Assembly: GCA_021781455.1 (NCBI GenBank)
Contig: JAJXWV010000022.1
Span: 1-64,000 of the forward strand
Length of the DNA: 64,000 nt
DNA from: Acidobacteriota bacterium
Lineage (GTDB): Bacteria > Acidobacteriota > Thermoanaerobaculia > Gp7-AA8
Reading direction: 5' to 3'
Below, piece by piece: positions 24,698 through 40,474 of the stretch. The notes beneath the pieces were generated by a model. The model did not search any database, had not been told where the DNA came from, and saw only the letters and a list, made by a program, of their open reading frames with translations. Numbering within the stretch: position 1 is the stretch's first letter; every line of letters starts with the position of its first letter. The position numbers and the translations under genes were made by a program.

Positions 24698-26032
24698 TCA
24701 CAGCACCGCGCGCAACTCGTCGAGGTGAGCGGCGAAGCGGTTCGGGTCGTAGGCGCTGCGGTCGCGTACGTCCACGAAGAGTGTGTCGATGGCCTTCATC
24801 ATTGGGCTCGCCGCCAGCCGCGGATCGCGTCGCGTCAGAACGCTCGCCAGCGACTGCAACGCGAGCGCCACCTGCTCCGCGGAGTGGACGTCGGATCGCA
24901 GGATGAACTCGCGATCAGAAGCGATCGTGACCATCATCGCCCGGACGTCGGGCTCGTTCCAGGTGAGTGAGGCGACGCGCGGAATGGCGCTCTCGACGAG
25001 CTGCCGCGCCTCGTCAGCGGCCGTGGCAACCCCCGCGGGATCGTTCATGCGCGAGACTCGCGAAGCGACCCGGGCCACGGCGTCGTCGAGCTGGGCGCGC
25101 GTCGAGGGTGCCGCTTTGGCCAGAATCAGCCGCAGCACCGCCCAATGCTGCGGGCTCCAGGCGGGCAGTCCGGCGCGCTCCGGCCAGCCGCGCTCCTGCC
25201 GCCAGATGCTCGACGGCTCGAGGGCGTGATGACAGTTCGTGCAGCTCATGTCGGAGAACTCCGGCCACTTCTCGCCCCGGGCGTGACGCGCCAGGTTGTT
25301 CATCGAATCGCGAAAGGCCACGGCCTGACCGATCGCCCAGGCCGGCACGCCGTGGGTGTCGTTCGGGTGCCAGTGTGCCGGCATCGACTCGCTGTAGTTG
25401 TCGAGCTCGAAAGCGAGGAGCGGATGGCCCGAGGCGATCAGCTCGTGATCGACTTCCTTCTCTGCGCTGCCGAGGTGGCAACGGTCGCAGACGTGGGCAC
25501 GGACGCGGATGTCGTGCAGATCGATCATGCCCTGAGCCACCGACTGCTGGTGCGTCCATCCCTGGTCGGTGTGCCGGGCGCGCCATCCGCTGGCTGGTCC
25601 GTGGCAGGCTTCGCACTGCACGCCATCCTCGGCATCGACCATGCCGGCGATCAGCTGCGCCGGAACGTTCGTCGAGTGACAGTCGAGGCAGACTTTCTCC
25701 TGGTACGGCTTCTTCTCGAGGCGCATGTTCCGGGCGATCCGCGCGGAGACGGCATTGAAGAGGACGTTGTACGAGCTCGCGTGGCGGTCGTTCCGCAGCC
25801 ATGTGTAGTACTCGTTCTGCAGGACGCGCGTGGTCTGGAGGGGATGCGTGGAGCCATGGCATCCGGAGCTGGCGCAGGAAGCGACGCCGAGGTATTGGCC
25901 GGGGGGCGGTTCGGGAGGGGGAGCAGGGGCGGCAGGCTGAATGGGGGCAGGCTGGAAAGCCTGCCCTACACGGGGTTGCTGCGCCGCGACCGCGAGTGCA
26001 ATGGAAGCGATGGCGATTCCGAGCCACTTCAT
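24698..26032 (-). CDS. secreted tetra/pentahaem cytochrome c
   Basis: A 444-residue periplasmic multihaem cytochrome with an N-terminal signal (MKWLGIAIASIALAVA). Haem motifs: CLDCH at 115, CEACH at 140, CDRCH at 182, CTNCH at 264, plus an unusual CX4CH (CASSGCH) at 53-59 that may bind a fifth haem. This pattern resembles the cytochrome c554-type families. A Pro-rich linker (residues 28-45) follows the signal; part of it is encoded by an intergenic-type repeat (see 25943-25976). The helical C-terminal 150 residues lack haems. The ATG overlaps the upstream decahaem gene stop (ATGA), so they are co-translated. It is the last gene of the proposed conduit and would shuttle electrons in the periplasm. 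Confidence 0.88.
   Translation of the reverse strand: MKWLGIAIASIALAVAAQQPRVGQAFQPAPIQPAAPAPPPEPPPGQYLGVASCASSGCHGSTHPLQTTRVLQNEYYTWLRNDRHASSYNVLFNAVSARIARNMRLEKKPYQEKVCLDCHSTNVPAQLIAGMVDAEDGVQCEACHGPASGWRARHTDQGWTHQQSVAQGMIDLHDIRVRAHVCDRCHLGSAEKEVDHELIASGHPLLAFELDNYSESMPAHWHPNDTHGVPAWAIGQAVAFRDSMNNLARHARGEKWPEFSDMSCTNCHHALEPSSIWRQERGWPERAGLPAWSPQHWAVLRLILAKAAPSTRAQLDDAVARVASRVSRMNDPAGVATAADEARQLVESAIPRVASLTWNEPDVRAMMVTIASDREFILRSDVHSAEQVALALQSLASVLTRRDPRLAASPMMKAIDTLFVDVRDRSAYDPNRFAAHLDELRAVL
25943..25976. repeat. repeat of the GACAGGCTTTCCAGCCTGTC family inside a gene
   Basis: GGGGGCAGGCTGGAAAGCCT followed by GCCCTACACGGGG matches the intergenic elements at 15554-15650 and 41521-41634. Here it is in frame within the cytochrome gene, encoding RVGQAFQPAP right after the signal peptide. 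The frame is kept, so the protein has tolerated the insertion in its linker. Confidence 0.75.
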
Positions 26033-29000
26033 TTCTGAACCTCGTCCGCTGGTTTCGTCGTCGGTGAGTCGCTGACGGTGTAGAGCTGGCCGTCGCGCAG
26101 ATAGAGCCGCTGCATTTCGGGAAGGGTCATCGGCCGCGCGCCGATGCGGTTGAAGATCGAGACCTGGTTGCCGCTCTCGTCGACGGCACGGTCGCGATCG
26201 AGACCCTTGGAGATCGCCAGCGCCGGGCCGGCGGTGTGGCGCACCGCGATCAGACGCGGCGACGGCCGCGGGCTGAAGCCGGCGTAGGTTGGCGTCCACT
26301 CCGGCGACAGAAGCTGCACGACCTTCAATCCGCCCGCGCCGTCGGCGACATAGGCGAAGGTGCTGGCGTTGGTCGAGGCGACCTTCACATCGCGGGCATC
26401 GCGGATCCGGCCGCCCGCGTCGAAGGTCTGATCGACGAAGGGGTGCTCCGGCCGCTCCACGTCGACGATGACGATCCCCTGTTTGCCAGCGGCGATGTAG
26501 GCATAGGTGCGCGCGACATAGACGCTGTTGGCGTTCTCGATCACAAGCGAGGCGGCCAGCCGCGGATGGGCTGGGTCGGTGATGTCGATCGTGTGCAGGC
26601 CGCGCGCATCGGTGACGAAGGCGTAGCGGAACTGCACGGCGATGGAGGTCGGCTTGTCGATTCCCGCAACGGTGGCGACCACGCGCGGGGCCAGTGGCTC
26701 GTCGACGTCCACGATCACCACTCCGCGATTGCATCCGACGAGCACCCACCGGCCGGCGACGGTCAGCGTCGAGGCCCCGTCGAGGATTCCGCCGGGATTG
26801 AACGTCAGCGCGCGTTTGAGGAAATTGTTCGACGGATCGCCGTCGGTCAGCGTCGAGACGTCGACGAGGATCAGCCCCTCGTCGCGGTCGCTGATGTACG
26901 CGTACTTGTAGAGCGGATGGATGGGCTGTTCCTGATTCTCCGGAATCTTCCCGGTGACCCGATTGGGAGCCATCGGCATCGTCGTCGGAAGCGCGACGGC
27001 CGTGGCGAACTTCGTCTTGACGTACGTCCTCTGCCCGAGCGGCGAGACGGGCGCGGATACGATGCGTTCCGAGACATCCTTGTTGTCGATGTTGGCCACG
27101 TCGTAGACCGCGAAGCCCTCCTTGCCGTTGGCCGTGAAGAGATACTCGCCGCGGAGCTGGATGCTGCGCGCGCGGCCGTGGTGGTGAACGGCCTGCTGGA
27201 GCTCGAGATGGTGCGCCTCGTGCTGCCTGTAGAAATCGGGATAGACGATCCGGTGAAGGCTCGAGCCGATGACGGCCTGCGGCTCGTCCCACTCCGTCAC
27301 GGCCACGGCCTCGAGCCCGGAGCTCCCTTCCGCCACCCAGGCATAGCGCCCGATGAGGTTGACGAAGTCCGTCCCCTGCAGGAGGAGCTGCGCCAGCCAG
27401 GCGTTGTTGTCGTTCGCCGCCGTGACGTGGCAGCTGCTGCAGCCCTGCGTCTCCGTGGCGCGAACGGTGTGAGGGACGTGCGGGTTGAAGGCCTGGCTGC
27501 TGAAACCGGGAGCGGAGATGGGCGGCTGCTGGATGTAGATGCGGTCGCGCAGGGCGTTGGTGGAGCTGATCACCAGCGCGCTCGACGAGCGGACCGGCGC
27601 GATCTTGTGGCCCTTGGTGGTGCCGTTCACACCTAACATGAAGGCATCCGTGCGGATGACCTGTGGGTTGTACGAGGCGTAGTTGCGCGTCTCGGTTCCC
27701 TCGTAATGGAGCATCGGGCTCTTCGCGTTCTGCTCCTGAGGAAGATGGCAGCCCGAGCACGACGTCATCCAGGACGTGTGGCAGGCGTAGCAGGTCATCT
27801 TCTGGTCGCTGTGGGCGAGATTCCCGGCCGGCACTCCCCAGGTGCGGCCGTCGCGCTGGATGGTCTTCGCGTACCGCGATTTCTCGCTGTAGTGAGGATT
27901 CCCGGGAGTGATGGAGTCCTTCACCTGCACGACTTCCCACTCCAGGCCCGGCGTGATCATCGACCGCTGATAGAGCCGGCCGGCGAGCCAGGCGAAGCGG
28001 CGCCGCCCATCCGGCGTCCGCGCAGCGGCCAGATCCGTGCCGCCGGGGGGCGCGGCCGGGCCGGAGGTGCGGAGATTCGAGTAGCCGTTGATGGTGCCGT
28101 GGCAGTCCTGGCACTCGATCTCGATGGTGTTGCCGTACTCGCCGTAGATCTGCCCGTTGCCGTGCTCGTCCTGCGAGAAGTGGCAGTCGACGCAGTGCAT
28201 CCCCTTCTCGAGGTGGATGTCCTGGAGGTGAACGGCTTTCCTGAATTTCTCCGGATCGTCGAACGAGACCTTGTCGCCTTTCGCGTCGAGCAGGTTGCCT
28301 TTGCGGTCGCGCTTGTACACGGCCATGAAGTTCCAGCCGTGGCCGTGGTAGTCGGCGAACTGGGTGTTCTTCGCCTTCGCGTTCAGGCCGGACACGTTCT
28401 CCAGGAAGGTCGGATCGCTCCACAGCCCGCGCACCGCGGCGCCTTCGGGATCGCGATCGAGGCTGGCGCGTTTTTCCGCTGCCGTGGGATAGCGCTGCTT
28501 CTTCGGCCAGAAGAGCTCCGCGTCCGTCTCGTAGTCCCACATCGTGTAGCCGAGATAGGTGTTCAGGAACGAGTTCGGCTGGTGCATGTGGCAGCTCATG
28601 CACTGGCTGGTGGGAACTGCACGCGTGAACTGATGGCGGATCGGGTGGCCCTTCTCGTTCTTGGGGATGGTCGGATCGCCAGTCTGCGAAAGCCCCGTGT
28701 TGCCGGCCGCCGCGTAGCCGCCGGAGTGCAGCGCATCGCGGTCGTTCGCGTAGACGACGTGACACGCCGAGCAGCCGCTGGAGCGATAGTCGCCCGGATG
28801 GTCGTTGGTACCGAGAAACGAGAGGTGCGGATCGTTGAGGCGCGTCTTGTGGATGTTGATCAGGCCCGGCGAGATCCGGGATCCGGTGCCGCGGCCACGG
28901 TTGCCCAGTCGGATGTCCGGACGGCCGGGCTGGTCGTCGGGGCGCGGATTGCCGATCTCGGGCGGAATGGTGTTGTTGGCGATGCCGCCGCGCTCGAAGG

Positions 29001-29694
29001 CGCGGAGGTACTCGCCCGGCTGCATGATCTCCCACCGCGGCAGCGGCACCAGGCCGGGAAGCGCTCCATGAGCGATCTGTTGGGCGGTGGGAGGAAAGGC
29101 AGGCTTGATGGCCTGCGGCTTTCCATCGCGGTCGTAACTCTCGCCGAGAAAGGCCTGCTTCCGGCCGATGATTCCGTTGGCGTAGCCGGCGGCATCCCAG
29201 AACACCGCGGCCGTCGTCATCGTGCTGCGCGAGACCGCCGTGACCTCTGCCTGATGGCAGCCGCCGCACGTTTCCTGCGCCACGCGCAGGTCGCCTGGAT
29301 TGACGAACTTCACGAACTCCGCCGGTTCCTTCAACAGCGCCGTGTAGCTCTCCTGCGGATTGGCGGAGCTCTTCCAGACCTCGGGATGCAGCGGCAGGAC
29401 GTGCGCGCGCCGCATCGCCTCGACGTCCTGCCGCGACGAGGCCACCACGCCCGCGTCACCGCCGTGGCAATCGGTGCAGCCTAACTTCACCGCTGGCGAG
29501 GCGTGCATCGGCTCGACGCCCTCATGACAGCTCAGGCAGCCGCGGCTCTTGGCGTCCGCCTCGGCCTGCGTTTGCGAACGCAACGAGTGCTGAGTACTGA
29601 GTGCTGAGTACTGAGTGGGCGATGGCGCGGGTTGCGCGAGCGCCACAGCAAATCCCAGTAGCAATGCACTTCCGCCGATCAGTTCTTTTCGCAT
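26029..29694 (-). CDS. secreted decahaem cytochrome c with LVIVD-type propeller
   Basis: A 1221-residue secreted protein. After the signal peptide (MRKELIGGSALLLGFAVALA) there are ten CxxCH motifs at about residues 53, 73, 143, 308, 365, 501, 528, 635, 646 and 752. From about 840 to 1180 there is a row of LVIVD-type repeats (GFAVYDVANI, GLILVDVSTL, GVVIVDVDEP, GLHTIDITDP, GIVIVDVERP), which build a beta-propeller found in cell-surface proteins. A second short repeat-encoded insertion lies near residues 27-40 (TQYSALSTQHSLRS). Position between the outer-membrane barrel gene and the periplasmic cytochrome suggests that it docks at the barrel or is displayed outside. The haem part resembles the nitrite/hydroxylamine-type multihaem group, but I see no substrate-site evidence. 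Confidence 0.9.
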   Translation of the reverse strand: MRKELIGGSALLLGFAVALAQPAPSPTQYSALSTQHSLRSQTQAEADAKSRGCLSCHEGVEPMHASPAVKLGCTDCHGGDAGVVASSRQDVEAMRRAHVLPLHPEVWKSSANPQESYTALLKEPAEFVKFVNPGDLRVAQETCGGCHQAEVTAVSRSTMTTAAVFWDAAGYANGIIGRKQAFLGESYDRDGKPQAIKPAFPPTAQQIAHGALPGLVPLPRWEIMQPGEYLRAFERGGIANNTIPPEIGNPRPDDQPGRPDIRLGNRGRGTGSRISPGLINIHKTRLNDPHLSFLGTNDHPGDYRSSGCSACHVVYANDRDALHSGGYAAAGNTGLSQTGDPTIPKNEKGHPIRHQFTRAVPTSQCMSCHMHQPNSFLNTYLGYTMWDYETDAELFWPKKQRYPTAAEKRASLDRDPEGAAVRGLWSDPTFLENVSGLNAKAKNTQFADYHGHGWNFMAVYKRDRKGNLLDAKGDKVSFDDPEKFRKAVHLQDIHLEKGMHCVDCHFSQDEHGNGQIYGEYGNTIEIECQDCHGTINGYSNLRTSGPAAPPGGTDLAAARTPDGRRRFAWLAGRLYQRSMITPGLEWEVVQVKDSITPGNPHYSEKSRYAKTIQRDGRTWGVPAGNLAHSDQKMTCYACHTSWMTSCSGCHLPQEQNAKSPMLHYEGTETRNYASYNPQVIRTDAFMLGVNGTTKGHKIAPVRSSSALVISSTNALRDRIYIQQPPISAPGFSSQAFNPHVPHTVRATETQGCSSCHVTAANDNNAWLAQLLLQGTDFVNLIGRYAWVAEGSSGLEAVAVTEWDEPQAVIGSSLHRIVYPDFYRQHEAHHLELQQAVHHHGRARSIQLRGEYLFTANGKEGFAVYDVANIDNKDVSERIVSAPVSPLGQRTYVKTKFATAVALPTTMPMAPNRVTGKIPENQEQPIHPLYKYAYISDRDEGLILVDVSTLTDGDPSNNFLKRALTFNPGGILDGASTLTVAGRWVLVGCNRGVVIVDVDEPLAPRVVATVAGIDKPTSIAVQFRYAFVTDARGLHTIDITDPAHPRLAASLVIENANSVYVARTYAYIAAGKQGIVIVDVERPEHPFVDQTFDAGGRIRDARDVKVASTNASTFAYVADGAGGLKVVQLLSPEWTPTYAGFSPRPSPRLIAVRHTAGPALAISKGLDRDRAVDESGNQVSIFNRIGARPMTLPEMQRLYLRDGQLYTVSDSPTTKPADEVQK

Positions 29695-29745
29695 CTTCTC
29701 AACTCGTTATTCCCACTCAGCACTCAGCACTCAGTACTCAGCACT
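29585..29745. repeat. inverted repeats of CAGTACTCAGCACT units around the gene start
   Basis: GAGTGCTGAGTACTGAGTGC continuing TGAGTACTGAGTG (29585-29617) lies inside the decahaem gene; CACTCAGCACTCAGCACTCA continuing GTACTCAGCACT (29714-29745) lies just upstream of its start. The two blocks are inverted relative to each other and flank the signal-peptide codons. In RNA they could form a long stem enclosing the start codon at 29692-29694. Confidence 0.75.
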
Positions 29746-29750
29746 TCGAA

Positions 29751-31748
29751 TCAGAAGGTCAGTGAAACGCTGGTGAAGACGTGGTAGAGCGTCCCCGTTT
29801 TCTCGTAGATGTCTTCGAAACCACGGCCGGGGATGAAGGCGGCCACGCCTCCGACGATGATCCAGTTGTTGCTCAGGAAGGGGCGATAGCGCGCGCCGAG
29901 GCTCAGGTCGGTGCCGAGCTGCTTGTGAATCGCGCCCTGAAAGAGGACGGCCTCGACCGCCTGGGGTGCATCGAGGCGAATGGCATTGACGTTGACCAGC
30001 GCGACCAGGCGCGGCGTCAGGTCGACATCGATGCCCGCGGTCAGGAGCTGGAGCCCGGGGTTGACGTAGTTCGGCTGCCCCTCGTCCTTGCTGCTGCGGA
30101 GCGAGGGAAGCAGGCTGTCGCGATCGACGAGGACGACTCCGGTGTCGGGCAGGCGGATGGCCAGGCGGTTGAAGAAGCTGAATCCGCCTCCGGCGAAGCT
30201 CGGAGCGTCGAAGATCGAGTCGAATCCGCGGGCCTTCCGATCGCGGGGATTGCGGTCGCCGCTGGCGTAGAAGAGGCCGAGGTGAGGGCGATACCAGTCG
30301 CGGTCGACGGAGAGATCGAGCGCCGCCATGGCCGCACCGATGCGCACGGAGTTGCCGCGGCGCAGATGGGGATCGGGGCCGGCGATCGGGTTCTCGCTGT
30401 CGCTGCCGAAGACGTAGTAGGCGGCCTGGTCGACGTTGAGGCGGCCGAAATGACCGAGGCCGGCTTCACCGAGGTAGGTGGCGTCGATCTTGTGGGGTGT
30501 GATGCTGCCGATCGGCGCGGGGCGGACAAGGTTTCCGTTGCGGTCGTAGGCGACGGGGCCGCCGTCGTGAAGCTGGTGGATCGAGAATTCCTGCGTGTAG
30601 CCGCTGCGCAGGAAATCCTGCAGGTAGACGTTGGCGACGGCCACCTGCTGATCGCGCAGCTCGCCGAAGCGGTTCAGCCCGCTGTTGGTGTCCTTCTCGA
30701 AGCGGTCGAAGAAGGCCAGATTGTATTGATATCGATTCGAGGCGTAGTTGCCGAAGAGCCGGGCACCGAGGTTCGTGTCGGTGTAGACGAAGCCGCGAAA
30801 ATCGCTGGAGAAGGGCTGGGAGCCGACGCGCACGGAAAGGAAATCGAAGTTGGGGCTGAGGTCGCGCAGCTTGCGCTCGTAGAAGATCTCCTGCAGCGCG
30901 AAGTAGCCGTTGCTGCGCGAGGTGCCGCGTCGGACGTCCGGCTTGACCAGGGCGTTCTCCCCGACGGACAGGTGATTGAAATTTGCGACTACGGTGGCCT
31001 TCACCCGCTGGCGGACGGGCTGGAACGTCGTTTCGCCCTGGTAGAGGTCGGCCGAGACGATGAGGTTCTGCTCGGCGAGGTTCTGGTTGTCGCGGCCGAA
31101 GAAGCGGAAGCTCGAGGGGCGGACGCTGCCCACGCCTGAGGGCGTCGGCAGGGTGCGCGATTCCGCGAGCGTGTCGGAGATGCCGGTGAGCACGAGGAAG
31201 GTATCGTTGCCGCGGATCGGGTAGTCGCCCTTGAGCAGGTTCTTGTTGTAGGGATCGAGCGTGGCGCCGCGGCTGCCGATGCGCCGCGCCCGCGGGCTCT
31301 CATCGAGCTCGTAAGGCGGTGGAACGATGCGCCAGCGGTCCGCCATCTCCTGGGTCGCTCCGGGCCCGGGCGGCGTTTCGGCCGCCCCATAGGCCGGCTC
31401 GACGGCGAAGGGAGACTGCCGCGACACGTTTCCCGGAAGCTGCACGCGGGCGAGCTGCGTGGCTTTCGCGCCGCCGATCGTGACCTGAAGGTCGTAGGTG
31501 CCGGTGGGGAGCGGCTGAGCGAACGTCACTTCCCACGTCTGGTCGATCTCGACGGTGCCCGTCGCGGACTTTCCGCCTAACGTCGCCGTCACCGCCGTTC
31601 CGGGCGCCAGGTCGGTCGTTCCGGCGACGGTGAACGGGACCCGGTCGACGAAGAGCGGCTGATCCCGATTGATGTGCACCTCGGCGGCTGCGAGCGGTAA
31701 TGAAAGCAGCAGGGCCAGGACCGCTGCGCTGAACGCATGCCCCCTCAC
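29751..31748 (-). CDS. outer-membrane beta-barrel protein, possible porin of the electron conduit
   Basis: About 665 residues. Signal peptide HAFSAAVLALLLSLPLAAA follows a GTG start at 31748; no better start is visible because a repeat occupies the upstream DNA. Residues up to about 130 form a small Ig-like domain (VPFTVAGTTDLAPGTAVTATLGGKSATGT...VQLPG). The rest alternates short polar and hydrophobic stretches with many aromatic ends, and the final residues VFTSVSLTF end in Phe, the usual BAM-complex signal. No haem motif is present. Set among multihaem cytochromes, it could act as the membrane sheath as in MtrB-type conduits, although I see no clear MtrB similarity. Confidence 0.75.
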   Translation of the reverse strand: MRGHAFSAAVLALLLSLPLAAAEVHINRDQPLFVDRVPFTVAGTTDLAPGTAVTATLGGKSATGTVEIDQTWEVTFAQPLPTGTYDLQVTIGGAKATQLARVQLPGNVSRQSPFAVEPAYGAAETPPGPGATQEMADRWRIVPPPYELDESPRARRIGSRGATLDPYNKNLLKGDYPIRGNDTFLVLTGISDTLAESRTLPTPSGVGSVRPSSFRFFGRDNQNLAEQNLIVSADLYQGETTFQPVRQRVKATVVANFNHLSVGENALVKPDVRRGTSRSNGYFALQEIFYERKLRDLSPNFDFLSVRVGSQPFSSDFRGFVYTDTNLGARLFGNYASNRYQYNLAFFDRFEKDTNSGLNRFGELRDQQVAVANVYLQDFLRSGYTQEFSIHQLHDGGPVAYDRNGNLVRPAPIGSITPHKIDATYLGEAGLGHFGRLNVDQAAYYVFGSDSENPIAGPDPHLRRGNSVRIGAAMAALDLSVDRDWYRPHLGLFYASGDRNPRDRKARGFDSIFDAPSFAGGGFSFFNRLAIRLPDTGVVLVDRDSLLPSLRSSKDEGQPNYVNPGLQLLTAGIDVDLTPRLVALVNVNAIRLDAPQAVEAVLFQGAIHKQLGTDLSLGARYRPFLSNNWIIVGGVAAFIPGRGFEDIYEKTGTLYHVFTSVSLTF

Positions 31749-31880
31749 CCGCGCTTCGCACACCCTCTCCCCGCTGGCGCGGGGAGAGGGAGAACACTTG
31801 CCCGCTGTCGCCAGATGCCGCGATCTGTTGCCCCTCGCCCCGCGGAGCGGGGAGAGGGTGGCCGAAGGCCGGGTGAGGGG
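31741..31880. repeat. palindromic repeats, CTCTCCCCGC family, at a gene 5' end
   Basis: CCCTCACCCGCGCTTCGCAC, ACCCTCTCCCCGCTGGCGCG and GGGAGAGGG at 31742-31789 form one hairpin. CCCTCGCCCCGCGGAGCGGG with GAGAGGGTGGCCGAAGGCCG and GGTGAGGGGC at 31832-31880 is a second related copy. The first overlaps the start of the outer-membrane barrel gene and may have replaced its native leader. Remaining bases to 31897 hold nothing else. Confidence 0.75.
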
Positions 31881-31897
31881 CAGCGCCAATATGCGCG

Positions 31898-33628
31898 TCA
31901 GTGGCACGGCCCGCCTCCGCATTCCGTCACGCCTTCCGGCTGCCGCGGGAACTTGAACATCGGCAGGCGCACGCCGCCTAACTTCGTCTGGTCGGCCCAG
32001 ATCTTCGGATCCGGGAGCAGTGGGCCCGCTCCGCCGACGGTGACGTAGTCGTCCTGATCGACGCCGTCGCCGCTGATGCCAAGTCCTCCTACGAGCTGGC
32101 TGCCGCGGTAGAGCGGCGTCGAGCCTGGAAAAAAGACGATTCCGTTCTGATTCTGGTTGGGGGCCTGCGAGCCCTGCGTGCAGGGATTGGCGAGGTCGTC
32201 GACGAACAACCTCGAAAACGGACCGGGCGCGACGCCGAACGCCGCCGAGTCGATTCCGGGCGGATAAAGCGGCTGTGCACCGTAGCCGATGGTCCGGTTC
32301 GAGACGGCGGAGCCTGGCGGGACGCCGGGAAGGTCGTCACGGGCGGCCGGATCGCTTCCGCTGAAGTAGACGACGTTGCGCGCCTTCGCCACCGAGACGT
32401 CGATCGAAAAGACCGTGGCGTCGGGCATGCGGTAGAGCGCGAGGATCGATCCGTCGACATCACCCACGGCGATGACCATCCGCGCGTAGCTGTTCAGCGG
32501 CAGCCGGATGATGGCGCGCGTCTTCTTGGCGGTGGCGATCGCGCGCTGTACGACGGCGTCGACTTCGCCCTGCGACAGGAGCGAACCGGCGCGCGGGCCG
32601 GCGAGGTATCCGTTAGGCGCGCAGCCGCCGTTCTGCACAAGCAGCGTGCCCTCGGGGCTTCCGGGGCGCGTTCCGGCCGGCTGCTGCAAGCCGTTCGGGA
32701 CTCCTCGTGAATCGAACGTCAGCTTGAGGTCGGGTCCGAGGAACGGCAGGCGGATGCCGCCGATGAAAACGTTCCCCGGCTCCGGGATCGGATAGAACGG
32801 CACGGGCGCGATCGGTCCGTTGCCCGATGCCAGCGCACCGAACGCGCCCGTAACCGCCGCGAACTCGGCAAGCTGTGGATCGCCAGCAATGCCGGCTACG
32901 CCGATCCCGCCGATAAGCTTGCCATTCGAGAGAACGCCTTCCGCAACGCGGTCGAGGCCCGGCGGCACGATTCGATACAGCGGAATGCCTCCCGCATCGA
33001 CGCTCGACGGATCCGTGTCCTCGGGCTGCTGCTTTCCGGTCACGATCCCCGGACCGCATCCGGACTTGTCGAACGGCGTGCACGGTTTTCCGTTGACGGA
33101 TGTCGCGGGCGCGATGCTCAGGCCCGAGTTGAACGGGACGTTGAGGCTACAGCCGCGATTTGTGTTCTCGATGCCGTAGAGCGGCGCGTTCGGCGCGTCG
33201 ATGACGCCGGGCGGGAAGTGGATCCCGCTGATGAAGCGCACCGTCCGCGAAGACAGCGGTGCCATGTCGTTGCTGAAGTACGCGGCAGATCTTGCCAGTC
33301 CGATGGCGCGATCGTCGTTGGCGGGATCGGCATTCGGCTTCCGGAAGACGGCCAGAGGGGTTCCCGCGCGATCAACCACGGCCACGGTCATGGTGTCGCT
33401 GTCGAGCGACGCGGCTGCGGCAGCGATGATCAGGTCGGTCTCGATCGGGTGGAGCGCATCGAATGCGGTCACCTGGGCGTTGCCGACCGCGCCCTCGGTG
33501 CATTGAACGGCACCATCGCTCGGACGGGGAATTGCGACCGCCCGTCGTGGGCCGCCCCGGGCCGGTCCGCCGCCGAGGAGCACGAACACCGTGAGCGCCG
33601 GGGCAATGACTCTCGACTTCATGTTCAC
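31898..33628 (-). CDS. secreted protein with two HbpS/GlcG-like haem-binding domains
   Basis: A 576-residue protein with signal peptide (SRVIAPALTVFVLLGGGPARG). It contains two copies of the HbpS/GlcG (haem-degrading/haem-binding) fold: one from about 50 to 290 with TVAVVDRAGTPLAVFRKPNA...ARSAAYFSNDMAPLSSRTV and GGIGVAGI, and one from about 340 to 555 with RMVIAVGDVDGSILALYRMPDATVFSIDVSVAKARNVVYFSG and GGLGISGDGVDQDDYV. Each repeat has the typical DxDGxxLAxxRMPDAxxxSxDVAxxKAR-like core, with long insertions carrying Cys residues. Family members bind haem or sense redox state in the periplasm. It could supply haem to, or sense the state of, the cytochromes around it. Confidence 0.82.
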   Translation of the reverse strand: MNMKSRVIAPALTVFVLLGGGPARGGPRRAVAIPRPSDGAVQCTEGAVGNAQVTAFDALHPIETDLIIAAAAASLDSDTMTVAVVDRAGTPLAVFRKPNADPANDDRAIGLARSAAYFSNDMAPLSSRTVRFISGIHFPPGVIDAPNAPLYGIENTNRGCSLNVPFNSGLSIAPATSVNGKPCTPFDKSGCGPGIVTGKQQPEDTDPSSVDAGGIPLYRIVPPGLDRVAEGVLSNGKLIGGIGVAGIAGDPQLAEFAAVTGAFGALASGNGPIAPVPFYPIPEPGNVFIGGIRLPFLGPDLKLTFDSRGVPNGLQQPAGTRPGSPEGTLLVQNGGCAPNGYLAGPRAGSLLSQGEVDAVVQRAIATAKKTRAIIRLPLNSYARMVIAVGDVDGSILALYRMPDATVFSIDVSVAKARNVVYFSGSDPAARDDLPGVPPGSAVSNRTIGYGAQPLYPPGIDSAAFGVAPGPFSRLFVDDLANPCTQGSQAPNQNQNGIVFFPGSTPLYRGSQLVGGLGISGDGVDQDDYVTVGGAGPLLPDPKIWADQTKLGGVRLPMFKFPRQPEGVTECGGGPCH

Positions 33629-33634
33629 TCCCGC

Positions 33635-35890
33635 TCAGATCTGGTAGACGAAGGTCGCTGCGTTGTCGCCGATGACGAGGACGTCGCCGCGCTTGAGCTG
33701 CACTTCCGTGATGCGCTCCCCGCCCGCTTTTCCGAGGAACGTCCCGTTGGTCGAGCTCTGGTCGATGGCCCACACTTTTCCGTTGCGTGGAACGATGCGC
33801 ACGTGGCGCTTCGAAACGCGAGTGTCGTTGATAACGACGGTGGAGAGTGCCGGATCGCGGCCAATGTAGAAGCCCTGGTCGTCGATGATGAAGGTCTTTC
33901 CCTCGGCGGGGCCGGCCGTGCAGCGGAGCATGCCGTTCCACTGCAGCATCTCCGTCGGGGCAGCGGCCTCCGGTTGCAGTGCCTCCTTGCGCACCATCTG
34001 CGTTGCGTCGATCGCCGGCGGGGTGGCGAGGGGTGGGGCAGGGGCAGGGGCAGGGGCGGGGGTCGGTGTCGCGGCGGTGGTCCGCAATGAATCCGGCGTG
34101 AGCGGCGGAACGTTCACGGCCGCAGGACGCGGCGCGGCACGGGATGCGGCCGGCGATTCCGCGCGGACTGGCCGCAGACGCTGGTAGAGCGCCAGTCCGA
34201 CGGGGACGAACACCACCAGCAGAAGCAATCCGATGAACACGAGCAGGATCGATCCGAGCATTCCCAACCCACCTTCCATATCGGCGCGCACGGCGCCGCC
34301 GCTCAGCGAGGCCAGGGCGACCTTGGGCATCAATTGACTGGAGCTTCCATGATAGCCGTGGCAGAGGACGCAGTTGCTGGAGGCTCGTACTGACAGGCCG
34401 GCCGTCCGCCGCTCGCCATGACAGTCGGTGCAGGCGCCGCGCAGAGGCAGGAGCACGTCCGATGTGCGAACGCTCTGCCGGGCCGCGGCGTGACAGGTCT
34501 CGCACGCCAGCTCGCGGTGCGGTCCGTGAGAAAACTTAGCCTTCATCCATCGCGTCGGAATGACCGGCGGGGTGACGGCCAGGCGTCCGCCGGCTCGTCG
34601 CACCTCATGGCAGACGCTGCACTTGACCTTGATGACCTGTTCGGCGGCGAGGACGGCGCGCTCGTCGTTCCCTTCCGGCGGACGCTGGGTGAGGATGCGC
34701 CGCACTTCCTCCGGCGGCTTGCCGGCGATGTCGCGATTGCCGGAGTACGTGGCCAGCACGAATCCATAGACGAGTGACGGATCGCCGCCGTGCGGAACTT
34801 CGGCATCGGGAAAGGCGGCGTCGAAGGTCAGGCGGTGGCAGCGCTGGCAATCGGTGGCGAACCGGATCGGCGCCGGATCGAGCTTCCCTTTTGTCTCCAC
34901 GAGGCGATGGCAGGACGTGCACGACAGCACTTCCCGCCGGCCGTTGCCGTTGAAGACGCCGCCCGGCTGAAGATGCAGCCGATGGTTGAGGCGCAAGGTG
35001 TCCCGGTCGGGCGGGAGCGCGAAATCGGGATGCCTGGGGCCGAAGGCGATGGCGTTGGCCAGCTGCGTATGGCCCGTGGCATGTGCGGCAATGTTGGCGT
35101 GGCAGGCCACACAGCGGCTGTCGGGAATGGAGGCGAGAGTCGTCGCACCGCGATGCTCGGCATGGCAACTGGCGCAGGGCGGCGGCGCGACCTGCTTGCG
35201 CGCATGCACCATGCGGCCGTGGCAGGTCTGGCATCGCGCGTCCGTCACCCCGCGCCATGGATCGTGACAGGCCCTGCAGTCATTGGCGATCGACTGGCCG
35301 CGGTCGTTGACGGCTCGGGCGTGGGCCGCCGACACGCTGCCGGGAGCGAAGGCCGCCTGCTTCTGCGGCCGCGTCACTTCTCCGATCAACGTCAGGCCGG
35401 CGATCAGCACGAGAGCGGTGAGGGTCGTCTTGGTCAGGTACGGCCGGCTGAGCTGGAAGGCGTTACGGTAGTCGATGCGCGGCGCCTTGATCGTTCCTCC
35501 CGCTGGCGCCGCGGGCGCCTGTTGTTCCTCAGGCTCATCGGACGCAGCCTGACTCGCGGCCGCCGCGGTCGAGCCGATGCGCATGAACAGCGGCTGCCCC
35601 GGCTCCGCCATCTGAACTTCGATGCGCAGGTCGCCGATCTCGATGACGTCGCCCTTCGAGAGCGGCGCCGCCTCCACCGGCCGGCCGTTGACGTAGGTTC
35701 CGGTGATGCTTCCTCGGTCGGTGATCGCATAGCCGGCGGGAGTCGTGTCGATTACCGCGTGATCGAGCGCCACGGCAGGGTTCTCCGACCGAACCTCCGC
35801 GCGCGTTCCGCGTCCGATGCGCAGCACATCGCCGCTGACCTCGCTCAGCGAAAGCCCTCGCCCCACGGCGCGCTGAATGAGGAAGCTCAT
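33635..35890 (-). CDS. FHA-TM-decahaem cytochrome-TM-FHA protein
   Basis: A 751-residue inner-membrane protein with an uncommon plan. Residues 1-95 form an FHA domain (RIGRGTRAEV, TGTYVNG); TM at about 155-172 (TLTALVLIAGLTLIGEV); then ten CxxCH motifs at 205, 220, 239, 260, 324, 348, 424, 463, 487 and 507, with many extra His residues as distal ligands; a second TM at about 543-569; a Pro/Ala-rich linker (600-630); and a second FHA domain at 655-745 with the full Arg-Ser-His-Asn set (FYIGRDP, VSKRHVRI, SSTNGTF). Two TMs put both FHA domains in the cytoplasm and the haems in the periplasm. FHA domains bind phosphothreonine, so kinase signalling could control assembly or electron flow. It is next to the haem b protein gene. 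Confidence 0.92.
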   Translation of the reverse strand: MSFLIQRAVGRGLSLSEVSGDVLRIGRGTRAEVRSENPAVALDHAVIDTTPAGYAITDRGSITGTYVNGRPVEAAPLSKGDVIEIGDLRIEVQMAEPGQPLFMRIGSTAAAASQAASDEPEEQQAPAAPAGGTIKAPRIDYRNAFQLSRPYLTKTTLTALVLIAGLTLIGEVTRPQKQAAFAPGSVSAAHARAVNDRGQSIANDCRACHDPWRGVTDARCQTCHGRMVHARKQVAPPPCASCHAEHRGATTLASIPDSRCVACHANIAAHATGHTQLANAIAFGPRHPDFALPPDRDTLRLNHRLHLQPGGVFNGNGRREVLSCTSCHRLVETKGKLDPAPIRFATDCQRCHRLTFDAAFPDAEVPHGGDPSLVYGFVLATYSGNRDIAGKPPEEVRRILTQRPPEGNDERAVLAAEQVIKVKCSVCHEVRRAGGRLAVTPPVIPTRWMKAKFSHGPHRELACETCHAAARQSVRTSDVLLPLRGACTDCHGERRTAGLSVRASSNCVLCHGYHGSSSQLMPKVALASLSGGAVRADMEGGLGMLGSILLVFIGLLLLVVFVPVGLALYQRLRPVRAESPAASRAAPRPAAVNVPPLTPDSLRTTAATPTPAPAPAPAPPLATPPAIDATQMVRKEALQPEAAAPTEMLQWNGMLRCTAGPAEGKTFIIDDQGFYIGRDPALSTVVINDTRVSKRHVRIVPRNGKVWAIDQSSTNGTFLGKAGGERITEVQLKRGDVLVIGDNAATFVYQI

Positions 35891-35901
35891 GCGCTTCTCC
35901 G

Positions 35902-36022
35902 GGAGTGCGGGCTTCCAGCCCGCCTGTTGCCGGGCTTGCAGCCCGGCGACTGCTTGAGCAGGGCCCGCCGTGAAGCGGCCGGGCAGGATGCCCGTCCGCC
36001 GGCGGGCTGGAAGCCCGCACTC
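35902..36022. repeat. inverted repeat with GCGGGCTTCCAGCCCGC ends
   Basis: GGAGTGCGGGCTTCCAGCCC continuing GCC at 35902-35924 and GGCGGGCTGGAAGCCCGCAC continuing TC at 36001-36022 are near-perfect inverted copies, and each is itself palindromic. In between is GCCGGGCTTGCAGCCCGGC, a third hairpin. It fills the gap between the haem b gene and the FHA-cytochrome gene. Confidence 0.8.
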
Positions 36023-36023
36023 C

Positions 36024-36851
36024 TCATCGCAACCTTCCGTAATAGAAGACCGCCACGACGTGAACGACGGCGAAGAGCAGCAGAGCGATGGTGAACGGGA
36101 TGTGCACGTACAGCCACGCTTCCAGGACGTTCTTGTACCGCTGCTGGTACATCAGGCGGATGAGCAGCTCGCTGCGCTGCCGCGAGACGATCAGCAGCTG
36201 GCGCAGGTCGTCCTCCTCGTTCTTCGGAGCGAGCCGGAGCAGGTCGGTCCAGTTGCCGGCGTCGGCCGCAGCCGGGCGGCGGCGGGTGAACAGGAGGCGC
36301 CATCCGGCCAGCCATCCCGGCGCGGAAGAGGTCATCAGCTGTTCGTGGATCCTCTGAAAGGCGGCCGACTTTCCCGAAGCGATGCGCGCCATCTGTTTAC
36401 CGAGCTGGTTGAGCTGCTCGGAGAGCTCGCCGGCCGTGAGATCGCTCTCCACTTCGGTGAGCAGCCGCGGCACCGTCGCGTAGAGGACGGCGCCGAAGAT
36501 GCCGCTGGCCACCACGATGACGACGAGGATCAGAGTGGTGACGGCGATGCGGTCGTTGAAGCGGCCGCCGGTGTGGTAGAGCAGGATCACCAGCACGAGC
36601 ACGCCGAGGTAGATGTGCGACTGGAGCCACTGCTCGAGAGTGCCGAAAGTCGATCGATACCAGCGCTTGCGGATTCCGAAGAAGGCCAGCAGCAGGATGA
36701 GCAGAGATCCGAGGATGCCGTAGGTGATGCCGAGCGGTGAGCCGCCATGCGGGAACTCGCGCGCGGCGTCCCAGAAGTACACCGCCGTGGCTGCGAAGAG
36801 AAGCAGCAGGACAATGCGGCGCCACAACACGCCGCTGTGCGCTACGGGCAT
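36024..36851 (-). CDS. dihaem b-type membrane cytochrome subunit
   Basis: A 275-residue protein with about five hydrophobic helices (near 12-28, 42-60, 76-95, 103-127 and 247-271). Helix three carries H79 and H93 and helix five H250 and H264; both pairs have exactly 13 residues between them (H-x13-H), the standard spacing for two haems held between two helices in b-type cytochromes. A soluble loop of about 120 residues joins helices four and five. I do not recognise a specific family. It could take electrons from the Fe-S fusion protein encoded just upstream, or exchange them with quinone, and pass them to the decahaem protein encoded downstream. The start at 36851 has AAGGAGCGG before it. 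Confidence 0.78.
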   Translation of the reverse strand: MPVAHSGVLWRRIVLLLLFAATAVYFWDAAREFPHGGSPLGITYGILGSLLILLLAFFGIRKRWYRSTFGTLEQWLQSHIYLGVLVLVILLYHTGGRFNDRIAVTTLILVVIVVASGIFGAVLYATVPRLLTEVESDLTAGELSEQLNQLGKQMARIASGKSAAFQRIHEQLMTSSAPGWLAGWRLLFTRRRPAAADAGNWTDLLRLAPKNEEDDLRQLLIVSRQRSELLIRLMYQQRYKNVLEAWLYVHIPFTIALLLFAVVHVVAVFYYGRLR

Positions 36852-36897
36852 GGCTCGAAGCCGCTCCTTGTAAGAATCTCGGCTACGACGGTGAATG

Positions 36898-36965
36898 CAC
36901 CACAGAGGCACAGAGACCACAGAGAAAAGCCAGGGGGCCTCTGTGCTCTCTGTGCCTCTGTGGTG
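36898..36965. repeat. inverted repeat CACCACAGAGGCACAGAG
   Basis: CACCACAGAGGCACAGAG at about 36898-36915 is matched by CTCTGTGCCTCTGTGGTG at about 36948-36965, with CACAGAG/CTCTGTG pairs inside. The loop holds AAAAGCCAGGGGGC. It is in the 36852-36987 gap; no U-tract follows, so it is not a standard terminator. Confidence 0.8.
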
Positions 36966-36987
36966 AAAATCCGCGATCGCAATCGCC

Positions 36988-39372
36988 TCATCGTTCCCCC
37001 CGGCTGATCACGAGCTCTTCGAGCGTGTCGCGATACTCGGACGGCGTGAGGCGGATGGCCGCGCCGGTCGGGCAGCTGCGCACGCAGGCGGGGCCGCCAG
37101 TGATCTCGCGGCAGAGATCGCACTTCACCGCCACGGTGCGCTCGATCTCCTGCTGCGCCCCGTCGCCGCCGCCGAAGAGTGAGCGCACCCACGAGAAGAG
37201 CGTCTTCTTCGGCTCCTTGTGGACCATGAAGATGTTTCCGTAGGGGCAGTTTCGCTCGCAGTTGCCGCAGCCGATGCAGTTGCTCTTGATGTAGACCTCG
37301 CCGCGGGGATCGCGGACGATGGCGTCGGGCGGGCAGTCCAGCATGCACAGCGGGTTCTCGCACTGCCAGCAGGAGTTAGGCGCGAGCAGGTTGTAGAAGC
37401 GGATCCCCGTCAGCGACAGGCGGGCGTGCCGGTCCTCGTGCACCCCTTCGCAGGCGTGAATGCAGTTGCCACAGCGGATGCAGCGGTGCTCATCGATGAG
37501 CAGCGTCTGCGTACCCATGACCACTTCCTCGCGGATGAGGTCCTGGAGGATGTTCCCCGATCCGGGAGTGGCCTCGGCGACGAACCCTGCGATGCGCCGC
37601 TCCTCGAGCTTGCGCAGAGGGGCCTCGCGCAGCTCCGGATGCGCGCCTAGGAACCGGTCGAAGTCCGCCTTGGAAAGCCTGATCAGGTCGGACGGGAAGA
37701 TCGTCGTGACCGTCGCCGTGCGCTGCGAATCGGAGAAGAGCGCCGCCTCGCCGAAGAAATTGCCGGCCACGAGATAGGAGAGGACCACCTCCTTCTCACC
37801 CGACTTCTTGGAGATCTTCACCATGCCGTTGCGAATCAGGTAGAAGGCGTCCGCGGCGTCGTCTTCGCGAAAGACAACGGCGTCCTTGCCGACGCTCTCC
37901 ACGGCGGCACGGTCGATCAGCTCGCCGAGCTGCGCCTCCGGGACTCCCGGGAAGAGATAGCCTCCGAAGGCTCGGAGCATGAAGGCCTGATCGACGAGGG
38001 CGCGGGCTCTCGGGGCGGTCGCCAGCAGCTTGAGGATGGCCTTGCGCGGGATCTCGATGAGGAGCGTCCGCCCGACGGCCTTGGCCGTGGCTGTCCGCCG
38101 CCGGCCGGAGATGAGGCTCATCTCGCCGAAGAAGTTGCCGGCGGTGAGCTCGGCGATCATCCCCTCGACGGCTGACTGCTCGGTGTGTTTCCACAGCTCC
38201 ACGCGGCCGGCGGCGATGATCAGGAAATCGTTGGTGTAGTCGTTCTGGCGGATGATCGTTTCGCCGTCGGCATATTCGCGGACACGGGCAGCGAGGAACG
38301 TGTCGCGCAGCTGCTGCTCGTCCGCGGCGGCGAGCAGCGGCACGCGGCTGCGCAGAGTGCGGATCCGCTCGGACACGGGACCGTCCCAGAAGGTGAGCCG
38401 TTCCTTGAGGACCGCTTCGTCGGCGGGCTCGACCTCGCGCCCCATCAGGTGTTCGACGACCTCGTAGCCCTGATTCATGCCGAGCTTGATCAGGTCGCGC
38501 CCGCTGGCCGCGCCGATGAGGAAGAGTCCCGGCACGGCCGACTCGTGGACGGGACTGAGGACCGGGCGCGCCTCTTTCCCTTCGCCGCTGTAGCGGACGC
38601 CGATCGACTCGAAGAACTTGCGCGGCGGATCAGCGCCGAGCTTCAGGAAGATCAGCTCCGCGGGAACGCGCAGCGGCTCGCCGCGGACCACCAGGTCGGC
38701 GTATCCGGCCTGAACCTGCTTGATCCCGGCGTTGAAGTAGACCGTCAACTGTCCCCGTGCCTGCCGGGAGAGGATCTCCTTGGTGAGGATCTCGTTCGCT
38801 CGCGTGATCTCCGGCCCGCGTACGATGAGGCCGACGCGGTTCTCGTCGGAGATGGCGATGGCGATCTCCAGCGCCGAGTCGCCGGCGCCGACCACGAGGA
38901 TGTCCTGATCGCGATGTTCGCTGGCGTCGGCCAGGCGATAGAGGACGTGGGGGAGGTCGTCGCCCGGCACGCCCAGTTTCCGCGGATTCCCCTGCGTTCC
39001 CATCGACAGCACGACGGACTTGGCGTCGATTTCGGATCCGGCTGCGGTGCGCACCCGAAACCGTTCCTCTTCGCGGCTGATGGACTTGACCTCGGAGCTC
39101 AGCCGGACGTTCAGCCCGCGCTCGCGCACGTGACCGTCCCACCCTTCGAGAATCGATTCGCGCGATCCCGGCTGGAACGGCAGGTCGCCGCGCGCCGGAA
39201 TCATGACCGGCTCGGCCATGACGAACTTGCGCGCCTGGTAGTTGTAGATGGTGTCGGCGAGATGATCGCTGCGCTCGAGCAGCACGTACGACAGGCCGTT
39301 GGCCTGCGCGTGTGAGGCCGCCGCCAGCCCGGCCGGCCCCGCCCCGATGATCGCGAGTTCAAACGATTCCAT
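36988..39372 (-). CDS. flavin oxidoreductase-cNMP-binding x2-four [4Fe-4S] fusion protein
   Basis: A 794-residue cytoplasmic fusion. Residues 1-315: FAD and NAD(P) binding folds with GAGPAG at 10-15, GAGDSA at 162-167 and the C-terminal FAD motif GLFLIGAASG; the thioredoxin-reductase CxxC is absent. Residues about 340-460 and 470-590: two cyclic-nucleotide-binding (CRP-like) domains with phosphate-binding cassettes FGEMSLISGRRRTATA and FGEAALFSDSQRTATV. Residues 625-775: a ferredoxin-like DmsB-type module with Cys clusters CIRCGNC (631), CWQCENPLCMLDC (668), CIGCGNCERNC (699) and CDLC...CVRSC (751), enough for four [4Fe-4S] clusters. It should pass electrons between NAD(P)H and the membrane haem b protein, gated by cAMP/cGMP-like ligands. 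The order of partners is inferred from gene order. Confidence 0.92.
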   Translation of the reverse strand: MESFELAIIGAGPAGLAAASHAQANGLSYVLLERSDHLADTIYNYQARKFVMAEPVMIPARGDLPFQPGSRESILEGWDGHVRERGLNVRLSSEVKSISREEERFRVRTAAGSEIDAKSVVLSMGTQGNPRKLGVPGDDLPHVLYRLADASEHRDQDILVVGAGDSALEIAIAISDENRVGLIVRGPEITRANEILTKEILSRQARGQLTVYFNAGIKQVQAGYADLVVRGEPLRVPAELIFLKLGADPPRKFFESIGVRYSGEGKEARPVLSPVHESAVPGLFLIGAASGRDLIKLGMNQGYEVVEHLMGREVEPADEAVLKERLTFWDGPVSERIRTLRSRVPLLAAADEQQLRDTFLAARVREYADGETIIRQNDYTNDFLIIAAGRVELWKHTEQSAVEGMIAELTAGNFFGEMSLISGRRRTATAKAVGRTLLIEIPRKAILKLLATAPRARALVDQAFMLRAFGGYLFPGVPEAQLGELIDRAAVESVGKDAVVFREDDAADAFYLIRNGMVKISKKSGEKEVVLSYLVAGNFFGEAALFSDSQRTATVTTIFPSDLIRLSKADFDRFLGAHPELREAPLRKLEERRIAGFVAEATPGSGNILQDLIREEVVMGTQTLLIDEHRCIRCGNCIHACEGVHEDRHARLSLTGIRFYNLLAPNSCWQCENPLCMLDCPPDAIVRDPRGEVYIKSNCIGCGNCERNCPYGNIFMVHKEPKKTLFSWVRSLFGGGDGAQQEIERTVAVKCDLCREITGGPACVRSCPTGAAIRLTPSEYRDTLEELVISRGER

Positions 39373-39508
39373 TCGAGCGCCGAGTCACCGACGTCATGCA
39401 GGCGCAGCAATCGCCGAGCGGCGAAGCATCCGTTCGCGGCTCACGGCCTCCAGATGTGAGTGACAGCTAATGAGTATCCGATGAAACGGTGTCCGAGTGT
39501 GAGCTGGA

Positions 39509-40474
39509 TTACGAATGCCCCAGATTCGTAGCGGTCGTCTCGCCGGCCTTGAGCTCGGCAGCGAGATTGAAGGTGAAGACGATCTTGCCGAGCCGGACCA
39601 TATCGTTGTCGGCCAGGGCCACGGCCTGCTTCACCGGCTCGCCGTTGACGAACGTGCCATTACGGCTGCCGAGGTCCTCGATCGCAAATCCGTCGGGAGT
39701 GCGCGAGATGCGGGCATGCCGCGACGAGACGCTGGCGTCCGGTACCACGATGTCGTTTCCCGGTTCGCGGCCGATCGTGTAGGCGTTGCCGACGAGTGGA
39801 TGGACAGCCGCGTCGGTTCCGGCGGAGGTCAGGGCACCGGCGCGTTTCTTTGCGGGCCCGGTTTTCTCCGTTGCCGCGGGCTCGGGAGCAGGTGCCGGCT
39901 GAGGCGCGGCTTCCGGCGGTGCTGCAGCCGGCCGTTGGGCTCCCGAATCGATGCGCAACAACAGTCCGCTCGCTTCCAGGGTGCGAATGGCCGCGGCGAG
40001 CTCCTCGCGTGTGGCCCCACCTTCGGCCATCAGCTCGCCGAAGGTGCGGCCGCTGCCGATCCGGAACAGAAGCTTGAACTGCTCCGGCTTGAGGCTGATC
40101 TCCTGGCCCGCGGGGGCATCCACGACGTGGAAGCGCGCTTCGTCGGGAAGAGTCTGGGCGATGACGATGCGCCGCTGGGCCTCTTCGAGAATTGCATCGA
40201 TCGGGTGAGGCTTCTCCGCCGCGTTGGCCGGGAGCTCGACGCCATCGAGAAACGTGAACGCGGCCTCCTGGTCGAAGAGGGAGGCCACGATGGCGACCAC
40301 GTCATTCCCTTCCGGCGATTCGCCCCAGACGACGAATCCGTCGCGAAAGAAGAGGCGCGCCCGCCGCCCTTTCATCTCCACGTCGAGCGTGCCGCTGTGC
40401 CGGTGCTGGGCGAGGAACGACAGCAGCTGCTCCGGCGGAAAGTGCCGCAGGCTCCCCTGCAGGATGACGAGCAT
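39509..40474 (-). CDS. DUF4388-FHA domain protein
   Basis: A 321-residue cytoplasmic protein. Residues 1-110 match DUF4388 (PATAN-like): LVILQGSLRHFPPEQLLSFLAQHRHSGTLDVEMKGRRARLFFRDG. A helical winged part follows (FGELMAEGGATREELAAAIRTLEASGLLLRI), then a Pro/Ala linker and a C-terminal FHA domain at about 230-305 with YTIGREPGNDIVV, VSSRHARI and LGSRNGTFVNG, all canonical phosphothreonine-binding residues. It heads the redox gene row and may be its signalling adaptor. The gap 39373-39508 upstream of the next gene holds no clear feature. Confidence 0.87.
   Translation of the reverse strand: MLVILQGSLRHFPPEQLLSFLAQHRHSGTLDVEMKGRRARLFFRDGFVVWGESPEGNDVVAIVASLFDQEAAFTFLDGVELPANAAEKPHPIDAILEEAQRRIVIAQTLPDEARFHVVDAPAGQEISLKPEQFKLLFRIGSGRTFGELMAEGGATREELAAAIRTLEASGLLLRIDSGAQRPAAAPPEAAPQPAPAPEPAATEKTGPAKKRAGALTSAGTDAAVHPLVGNAYTIGREPGNDIVVPDASVSSRHARISRTPDGFAIEDLGSRNGTFVNGEPVKQAVALADNDMVRLGKIVFTFNLAAELKAGETTATNLGHS

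Follow-up and report, generated by a model that had tools for sequence, protein, structure and literature searches.

A gene set conserved across bacterial phyla that may encode an NAD(P)H-driven, regulated electron-transfer chain through the cell envelope

In the genome of an Acidobacteriota bacterium (Thermoanaerobaculia; Gp7-AA8; assembly GCA_021781455.1), multihaem cytochromes, an iron-sulfur flavoprotein, and an outer-membrane barrel are encoded side by side, and some of the redox proteins contain signalling domains as well. What kind of electron-transfer system do these genes encode, and how widespread is it? We analyzed positions 1-64,000 of contig JAJXWV010000022.1, and we will call this stretch, at its full length of 64,000 nucleotides, the window. 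At 24698-40474, the minus strand of the window contains eight ORFs (g1 to g8), which we list with the three gaps that contain palindromic repeats. Apart from those of g6, the named domains were detected by Pfam.

39509..40474, minus strand: g1, DUF4388 + FHA protein, 321 amino acids
36988..39372, minus strand: g2, YpdA-like FAD/NAD(P) domain + tandem cNMP-binding domains + four [4Fe-4S], 794 amino acids
36852..36987, no strand: gap g2-g3, contains a CACAGAGGCACAGAG-type palindrome
36024..36851, minus strand: g3, predicted membrane b-type cytochrome, dihaem (H79/H93, H250/H264)
35891..36023, no strand: gap g3-g4, made of a GCGGGCTTCCAGCCCGC-type palindromic repeat
33635..35890, minus strand: g4, FHA (degenerate)-TM-decahaem-TM-FHA (intact), 751 amino acids
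31898..33628, minus strand: g5, secreted double HbpS-like protein (PF03928)
31749..31897, no strand: gap g5-g6, contains a CCCTCTCCCCGC-type palindromic repeat
29751..31748, minus strand: g6, predicted outer-membrane protein with an Ig-like N-terminal domain and an 18-strand barrel closest to AlgE
26029..29694, minus strand: g7, secreted decahaem protein with a C-terminal LVIVD beta-propeller, 1221 amino acids
24698..26032, minus strand: g8, cytochrome c554-like pentahaem protein (4 CxxCH + CX4CH), 444 amino acids

The first-pass annotation had reported eight same-strand genes with these domains and at least 24 CxxCH motifs. Its outer coordinates are right, Pfam agrees on the domains, and g4, g7, and g8 contain 10, 10, and 4 of the motifs, or 24 in all. 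It had also described the junctions as short or overlapping. From g1 to g8, they are 136, 136, 133, 6, 149, 56, and -4 bases, so the description suits those of 6, 56, and -4 bases (the stop of g7 and the start of g8 overlap by 4 bases) but not the gaps of 133-149 bases, three of which contain palindromes. The palindromic repeats in gaps g2-g3, g3-g4, and g5-g6 are of three kinds. If g6 begins at an upstream start (31922), then the g5-g6 junction is -25 bases instead of 149, and the longer g6 would run through the palindromic repeat. Another palindromic repeat, with about 60 matches genome-wide, lies inside the signal-peptide region of g8 (window 25943-25975).

A promoter scan identified one promoter-like site, on the minus strand immediately before g1. 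Within the gene row, scanning found no strong terminator or internal promoter signal, and terminators were without clear excess. We consider the row to be a candidate operon, which these scans do not prove. The row itself is far above chance, given its invariant haem motifs and a gene order that recurs across phyla.

Among 149 Acidobacteriota genomes, we found g7 in 14 and g3 in 26, including all of those with g7 (14/14, p = 6e-13). In these 149 genomes, the outer part of the set never occurs without the inner part, and the inner part also occurs alone. g6 adjoins g7 in 13/13 of the Acidobacteriota neighbourhoods that we examined besides the window. The full eight-gene order is kept in the two nearest relatives; elsewhere, g2-g3-g4 are rearranged or are found at another site. 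Among the relatives examined, these two are also the only ones in which g1 is syntenic. The FHA domain of g1 has the canonical GR / SSRH / NGT residues, and g1 is a local accessory, which belongs to the local version of the set only.

Scanning GTDB species genomes with an alignment of g7 gave at least 587 loci, and we sampled the best 80 of these, as chosen by g7 alone. Where the sampled loci had enough flanking sequence, g6 was present in 65/65, g5 in 55/58, g4 in 51/55, g3 in 48/53, and g2 in 40/47. All of g2-g7 are present in 45 of the best 80 loci, and 31 of those 45 contain g8 too. The commonest order in the best 80 loci is g2-g3-g4-g5-g6-g7(-g8), which is the window's order. These 80 loci span at least seven phyla, with carriers from Acidobacteria, Nitrospirae, Binatia, Deltaproteobacteria, Chlorobi/Ignavibacteria, Marinimicrobia, Rokubacteria, and alpha-, beta-, and gamma-Proteobacteria. 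(The taxa are the depositors' names, and a few bins are plainly misnamed.) Pairwise distances between the proteins are correlated, with r = 0.90 for g7 and g6 and r = 0.87 for g7 and g2, to which shared descent contributes; 0/2000 permutations reach either value. The first-pass annotation had named an order confined to close relatives as grounds for giving up its proposal; the order instead recurs across phyla, and the proposal withstood this comparison. What had been presented as an eight-gene set is a conserved set of seven genes, g2-g8, with g1 as a local addition.

The isolates that carry the set include aerobic heterotrophs, and Limnobacter alexandrii and Pseudoteredinibacter isoporae are cultured, aerobic carriers. 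The set is also found on large plasmids of Sphingobium and Sphingopyxis. On plasmid pMSHV of Sphingobium herbicidovorans (L140), genes for two-partner secretion and a CHASE2 gene are found close to it. Because this large plasmid is typed as conjugative, the set can probably move between strains.

If these genes encode an electron-transfer chain, then g2 is the candidate for its cytosolic end. In Pfam, g2 contains Pyr_redox, two cNMP_binding, and four [4Fe-4S] domains, and no signal peptide was seen in its sequence. Residues 4-294 match structures of YpdA/Bdr (E = 8e-40), and Pyr_redox_3 was found in 34/34 homologues of g2. Although its N-terminal region is similar to YpdA flavoproteins, g2 differs from them by its fused cNMP and [4Fe-4S] domains, and it scores 145 bits against the YpdA equivalog (the cut-off is 340). 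The C-terminal part of g2 has exactly 16 invariant cysteines, which would ligate four [4Fe-4S] clusters. The nucleotide-binding flavoprotein domain fits the predicted entry of electrons from NAD(P)H.

Across the loci, three NAD(P)H modules alternate at the cytosolic end: the YpdA-like FAD module, a NuoEF/NuoG-like module, and an FAD-FHA-2Fe2S module. In loci from Terriglobia and Rokubacteria, the N-terminus of g2 is NuoG-like (2Fe-2S/4Fe-4S), and a NuoE-NuoF fusion with an FMN domain is encoded upstream. Such a fusion lies beside a NuoG-like/cNMP/4Fe-4S protein at L083:21071-22750 and L041:12550-14196, and also in loci L094, L103, L106, and L125. The arrangement resembles NuoEFG, but here the NuoG-like N-terminus continues into cNMP domains and four [4Fe-4S], and the dihaem b protein and the decahaem c protein come next. 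The two proteins apparently make up a cNMP-regulated NADH dehydrogenase head outside of complex I. Chlorobi/Ignavibacteria and some Acidobacteriota encode a separate FAD-FHA-2Fe2S protein. In several Acidobacteriota, an FHA-octahaem protein carries a fused FAD domain at its far end: L032:3351-6674 is a single ORF with the arrangement FHA-TM-octahaem-TM-4Fe4S-FAD, and there are similar ORFs in L165-L168. There is also a natural fusion of cNMP, 4Fe4S, and cytochrome b in one ORF. The best evidence that NAD(P)H is the cytosolic partner is that non-homologous NAD(P)H flavoproteins fill one position, and we consider this partner to be likely.

g3 has weak similarity to Ferric_reduct / cytochrome b561 in Pfam, and searching the PDB gave no meaningful match. 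Because the four invariant histidines of g3 form two pairs, each spaced by 14 residues, we predict that it is a dihaem b-type cytochrome. g4 contains 10 CxxCH motifs between two FHA domains, and each CxxCH is invariant over 38 homologues. Two hydrophobic stretches in g4 suggest the membrane topology that is listed above. Elsewhere in the window's genome, a second homologue of g3 adjoins a minus-strand ORF with 40 CxxCH in 1017 amino acids (L161:1-3051, on contig C64; the ORF runs off the contig end). These two genes may encode another inner module, in which the partner protein is very rich in haem.

We propose that the set encodes a modular chain that leads from cytosolic NAD(P)H to a haem/barrel pair at the outer membrane, and that this chain is regulated by cyclic nucleotides, with Ser/Thr phosphorylation as a further control in many lineages. 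We give this proposal an even chance of being correct. Electrons would pass from NAD(P)H to the FAD of g2 and its four [4Fe-4S] clusters, then to the two b-haems of g3, and then to the ten c-haems of g4, which would be anchored in the inner membrane with its FHA domains on the cytosolic side. The pentahaem protein g8 would serve as a periplasmic relay (g4 to g8 to g7). The decahaem protein g7 would form a complex with the AlgE-like barrel g6, which would hold it so that the beta-propeller is towards the acceptor. g5 would be secreted as an accessory protein, possibly to bind haem or the acceptor. Finally, cNMP bound to the tandem domains of g2, between the flavin and the Fe-S clusters, would gate electron entry. 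One point against this proposal is that the dihaem b protein g3 may interact with quinone rather than relay electrons directly.

The direction of flow was described as unknown in the first-pass annotation, and we can narrow this. With NAD(P)H as the partner, potentials suggest that electrons flow outward, so the three alternative NAD(P)H modules at one position favor NAD(P)H-driven outward flow. Conversely, the chain might run inward from an extracellular donor and reduce NAD(P)+ for lithotrophy. Multihaem conduits of the Mto/Mtr type can work reversibly (PMC10734462), and one of our loci (L089) is titled 'Haliea sp. Biocath'. However, reduction of NAD(P)+ requires a donor below about -320 mV or an input of energy, the set lacks a proton-coupled unit, and it is found in isolates that are aerobic heterotrophs. 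We consider electron uptake to be improbable.

How would electrons that flow outward reach the outside of the cell? g6 has no hit to any Pfam family above its cut-off. In its AlphaFold model (mean pLDDT 84.8), an Ig-like domain accompanies a barrel of 18 strands, and the nearest solved fold is AlgE (E = 6e-15, TM 0.67 on target, 12-14% identity). g6 differs from AlgE by its extra Ig-like domain and by its genetic partnership with haem proteins. One acidobacterial g6 barrel bears four CxxCH, which links the barrel to haem; the window's own g6 has none. In g7, nine of the ten CxxCH are invariant over 48 homologues, and the tenth is present in 44/48. When g7 was compared to known structures with Foldseek, the best 50 matches were mainly beta-propeller proteins, which is uninformative about the haem half. 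g8 matches Cytochrome_C554 in Pfam, and since it has a conserved CX4CH besides four CxxCH, we consider it to be a pentahaem protein. g5 matches the HbpS-like family PF03928 at 79 bits (the cut-off is 25) in two stretches, and some proteobacterial homologues have a lipobox-like N-terminus. We rejected a CX4CH at the end of g5 as an extra haem site because it is not conserved. The strict pairing of g6 and g7 (65/65) is suggestive of electrons crossing the outer membrane by a barrel and a cytochrome.

MtrCAB is one known way to do so, and by the following tests the set is not a member of this type. The MtrB barrel has 26 strands in a solved complex. An MtrB-like barrel around a decahaem protein is ruled out by the 18 strands in the model of g6 and by its best 50 matches in the PDB, which are AlgE and general porins. 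A decahaem of the DmsE/MtrA family (TIGR03508, cut-off 192 bits) is ruled out by scores of 18 bits for g4 and 18.7 bits for g8, and g7 lacks the match to PF22113 that would be expected for an outer-membrane decahaem of the MtrC/F type. The set does resemble MtrCAB, PCC3, and Uet in having an outer-membrane barrel beside multihaem cytochromes and an inner-membrane electron donor, and Uet has propeller-type (NHL) proteins too (PMC10734462). Nevertheless, none of the clusters in PMC10734462 is reported with a cytosolic NAD(P)H enzyme, a dihaem b protein, or cNMP/FHA domains, all of which are in this set. Judged by their composition as described in PMC10734462, membership in PCC3 or Uet is not supported.

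The chain might also end in the periplasm. If so, g7 would be a multihaem reductase, distantly similar to octahaem or NrfA reductases, that acts on a small substrate; the AlgE-like barrel would admit the substrate or release the product, and g5 would bind it. The barrel does resemble an exporter or a substrate-specific porin rather than MtrB. Also, the first haems of g7 resemble octahaem nitrite reductase: the profile of g7 aligns with the two-haem region at the N-terminus of that enzyme (E = 1e-5) and has a weak match to NrfA. g7 is partially similar to ExtM (91 bits), from a selenite/tellurite operon. But CxxCK is absent from the 48 g7 sequences, and g7 has at least 10 conserved histidines outside of CxxCH, which suffice for bis-His ligation of all haems. 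The lack of CxxCK speaks against an octahaem or NrfA nitrite reductase, but g7 may have an open haem. The propeller half would be typical of secreted or surface proteins, and the barrel bears haem motifs in one genome. On balance, a periplasmic reductase seems unlikely, but it is the main alternative.

Whether g7 is at the surface or in the periplasm, where it could be, is what divides this alternative from the trans-envelope chain that we prefer. In addition, the modeled barrel is AlgE-like with 18 strands, and it is not established that a barrel of that width can be threaded by a multihaem protein. Of the trans-envelope conduit that the first-pass annotation had proposed, the conserved set stands, and we infer the step across the outer membrane.

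The similarity of g7 to ExtM raises the question of whether the set is related to the extHIJKLMNOPQS operon of Geobacter, which is a selenite/tellurite operon (PMC5877670). In both, a single cluster encodes a porin and a b-type cytochrome along with several multihaem proteins. But the set lacks the Rieske protein, the rhodanese, and the selenoprotein, and ext as described in PMC5877670 lacks an NAD(P)H or cNMP part. Scores for ExtM (91 versus 800 bits), ExtN (19 versus 200), and ExtO (19 versus 200) are all below the cut-offs, so the set is not an Ext system.

Like Pyr_redox_3, the cNMP domains are present in 34/34 homologues of g2; the NuoG-like variants and the shorter ones contain them as well. 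As in cNMP-regulated proteins (CNB), the phosphate-binding cassettes of g2 contain Glu and Arg: the Glu is present in 33/34 homologues for CNB1 and in 29/34 for CNB2, Arg 426 is invariant, and Arg 551 is conserved in at least 90%. As for the FHA domains, both g1 and the C-terminal FHA of the window's g4 retain the phosphothreonine contacts (Arg, Ser, Asn). The N-terminal FHA fold of g4 can be detected by Pfam in 18/38 homologues, and also in the family profile, yet nearly all homologues have lost the phosphothreonine contacts there. Because the widely shared FHA domain lacks these contacts, phospho-signalling through g4 would be lineage-specific.

Signalling genes are also found beside the set: among the best 80 loci, there are 12 with PP2C, 12 with an extra FHA protein, 6 with a Ser/Thr kinase (one of them weak), and 6 with a CHASE2 cyclase, and 22 of these 80 loci have at least one such neighbour. 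The inner module of acidobacterium G008 is likewise flanked by a PP2C gene and a kinase gene. Because genomes of this kind often encode CHASE2 cyclases, their linkage to the set is weak evidence. The first-pass annotation had called the system regulated. The cNMP domains in every g2 homologue and the PP2C, kinase, FHA, or cyclase neighbours in unrelated lineages strengthen this.

These domains also raise the possibility that the system is mainly a redox sensor, in which the haem chain of the envelope would report on redox conditions outside the cell, with the cNMP/FHA parts as its output. In favor of this, both electron carriers have signalling domains on their cytosolic side, and kinases and phosphatases are encoded nearby. 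However, cNMP domains are receivers, and the window's redox proteins have no attached effector domain. About 27 haems, a barrel, and an NAD(P)H enzyme would also be costly for a sensor. We consider a sensor to be very improbable, and we return to regulated electron export as our preferred reading.

The set has no kinase or cyclase as a direct neighbour in the window's genome, but 25 matches to Ser/Thr kinases and two to class III cyclases are present in that genome. One kinase domain match, at window 12883-14613, is about 11 kb from the set, and the ORFs upstream of it resemble anti-sigma factor and antagonist proteins. A Cache-GAF-PAS-GGDEF-EAL protein (window 46787-51004) is encoded 6 kb upstream of the set, near DUF4388 proteins.

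The set would work like a porin-cytochrome chain, but with its own entry enzyme and its own regulation. As far as we know, the outer-membrane conduits described so far have been studied mainly in metal-respiring or iron-oxidising bacteria and are tied to the quinone pool. The first-pass annotation knew of no characterised system of this composition, and we likewise found no description of this gene combination in open-access full text from PMC. In RefSeq, the proteins of one set are named 'hypothetical protein', 'multiheme c-type cytochrome', 'heme-binding protein', and 'cyclic nucleotide-binding domain-containing protein', and because these names are generic, the system is easily overlooked. 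We suggest, tentatively and with some doubt, that the set represents a widespread and undescribed class of trans-envelope chains, which would be fed directly by cytosolic NAD(P)H independently of quinones, gated by second messengers and protein phosphorylation, and used for redox balancing or extracellular reduction in aerobes, rather than for metal respiration in anaerobes. If so, electron export would be gated by cAMP/cGMP together with phosphorylation, and a single inner-membrane unit would have acquired three alternative NAD(P)H enzymes. At least 587 GTDB loci contain g7, and the sampled ones have matched partners in Proteobacteria, Acidobacteria, and several other phyla. The carriers include cultured aerobes, which are testable.

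The window also encodes, at 54227-57277 on the plus strand, a 9-haem protein that resembles the MtrC/F domain. Two 10-haem proteins are encoded on the plus strand of the same contig, about 14-17 kb beyond it (L162:7594-10853). These three proteins possibly form a separate, Mtr-like set.
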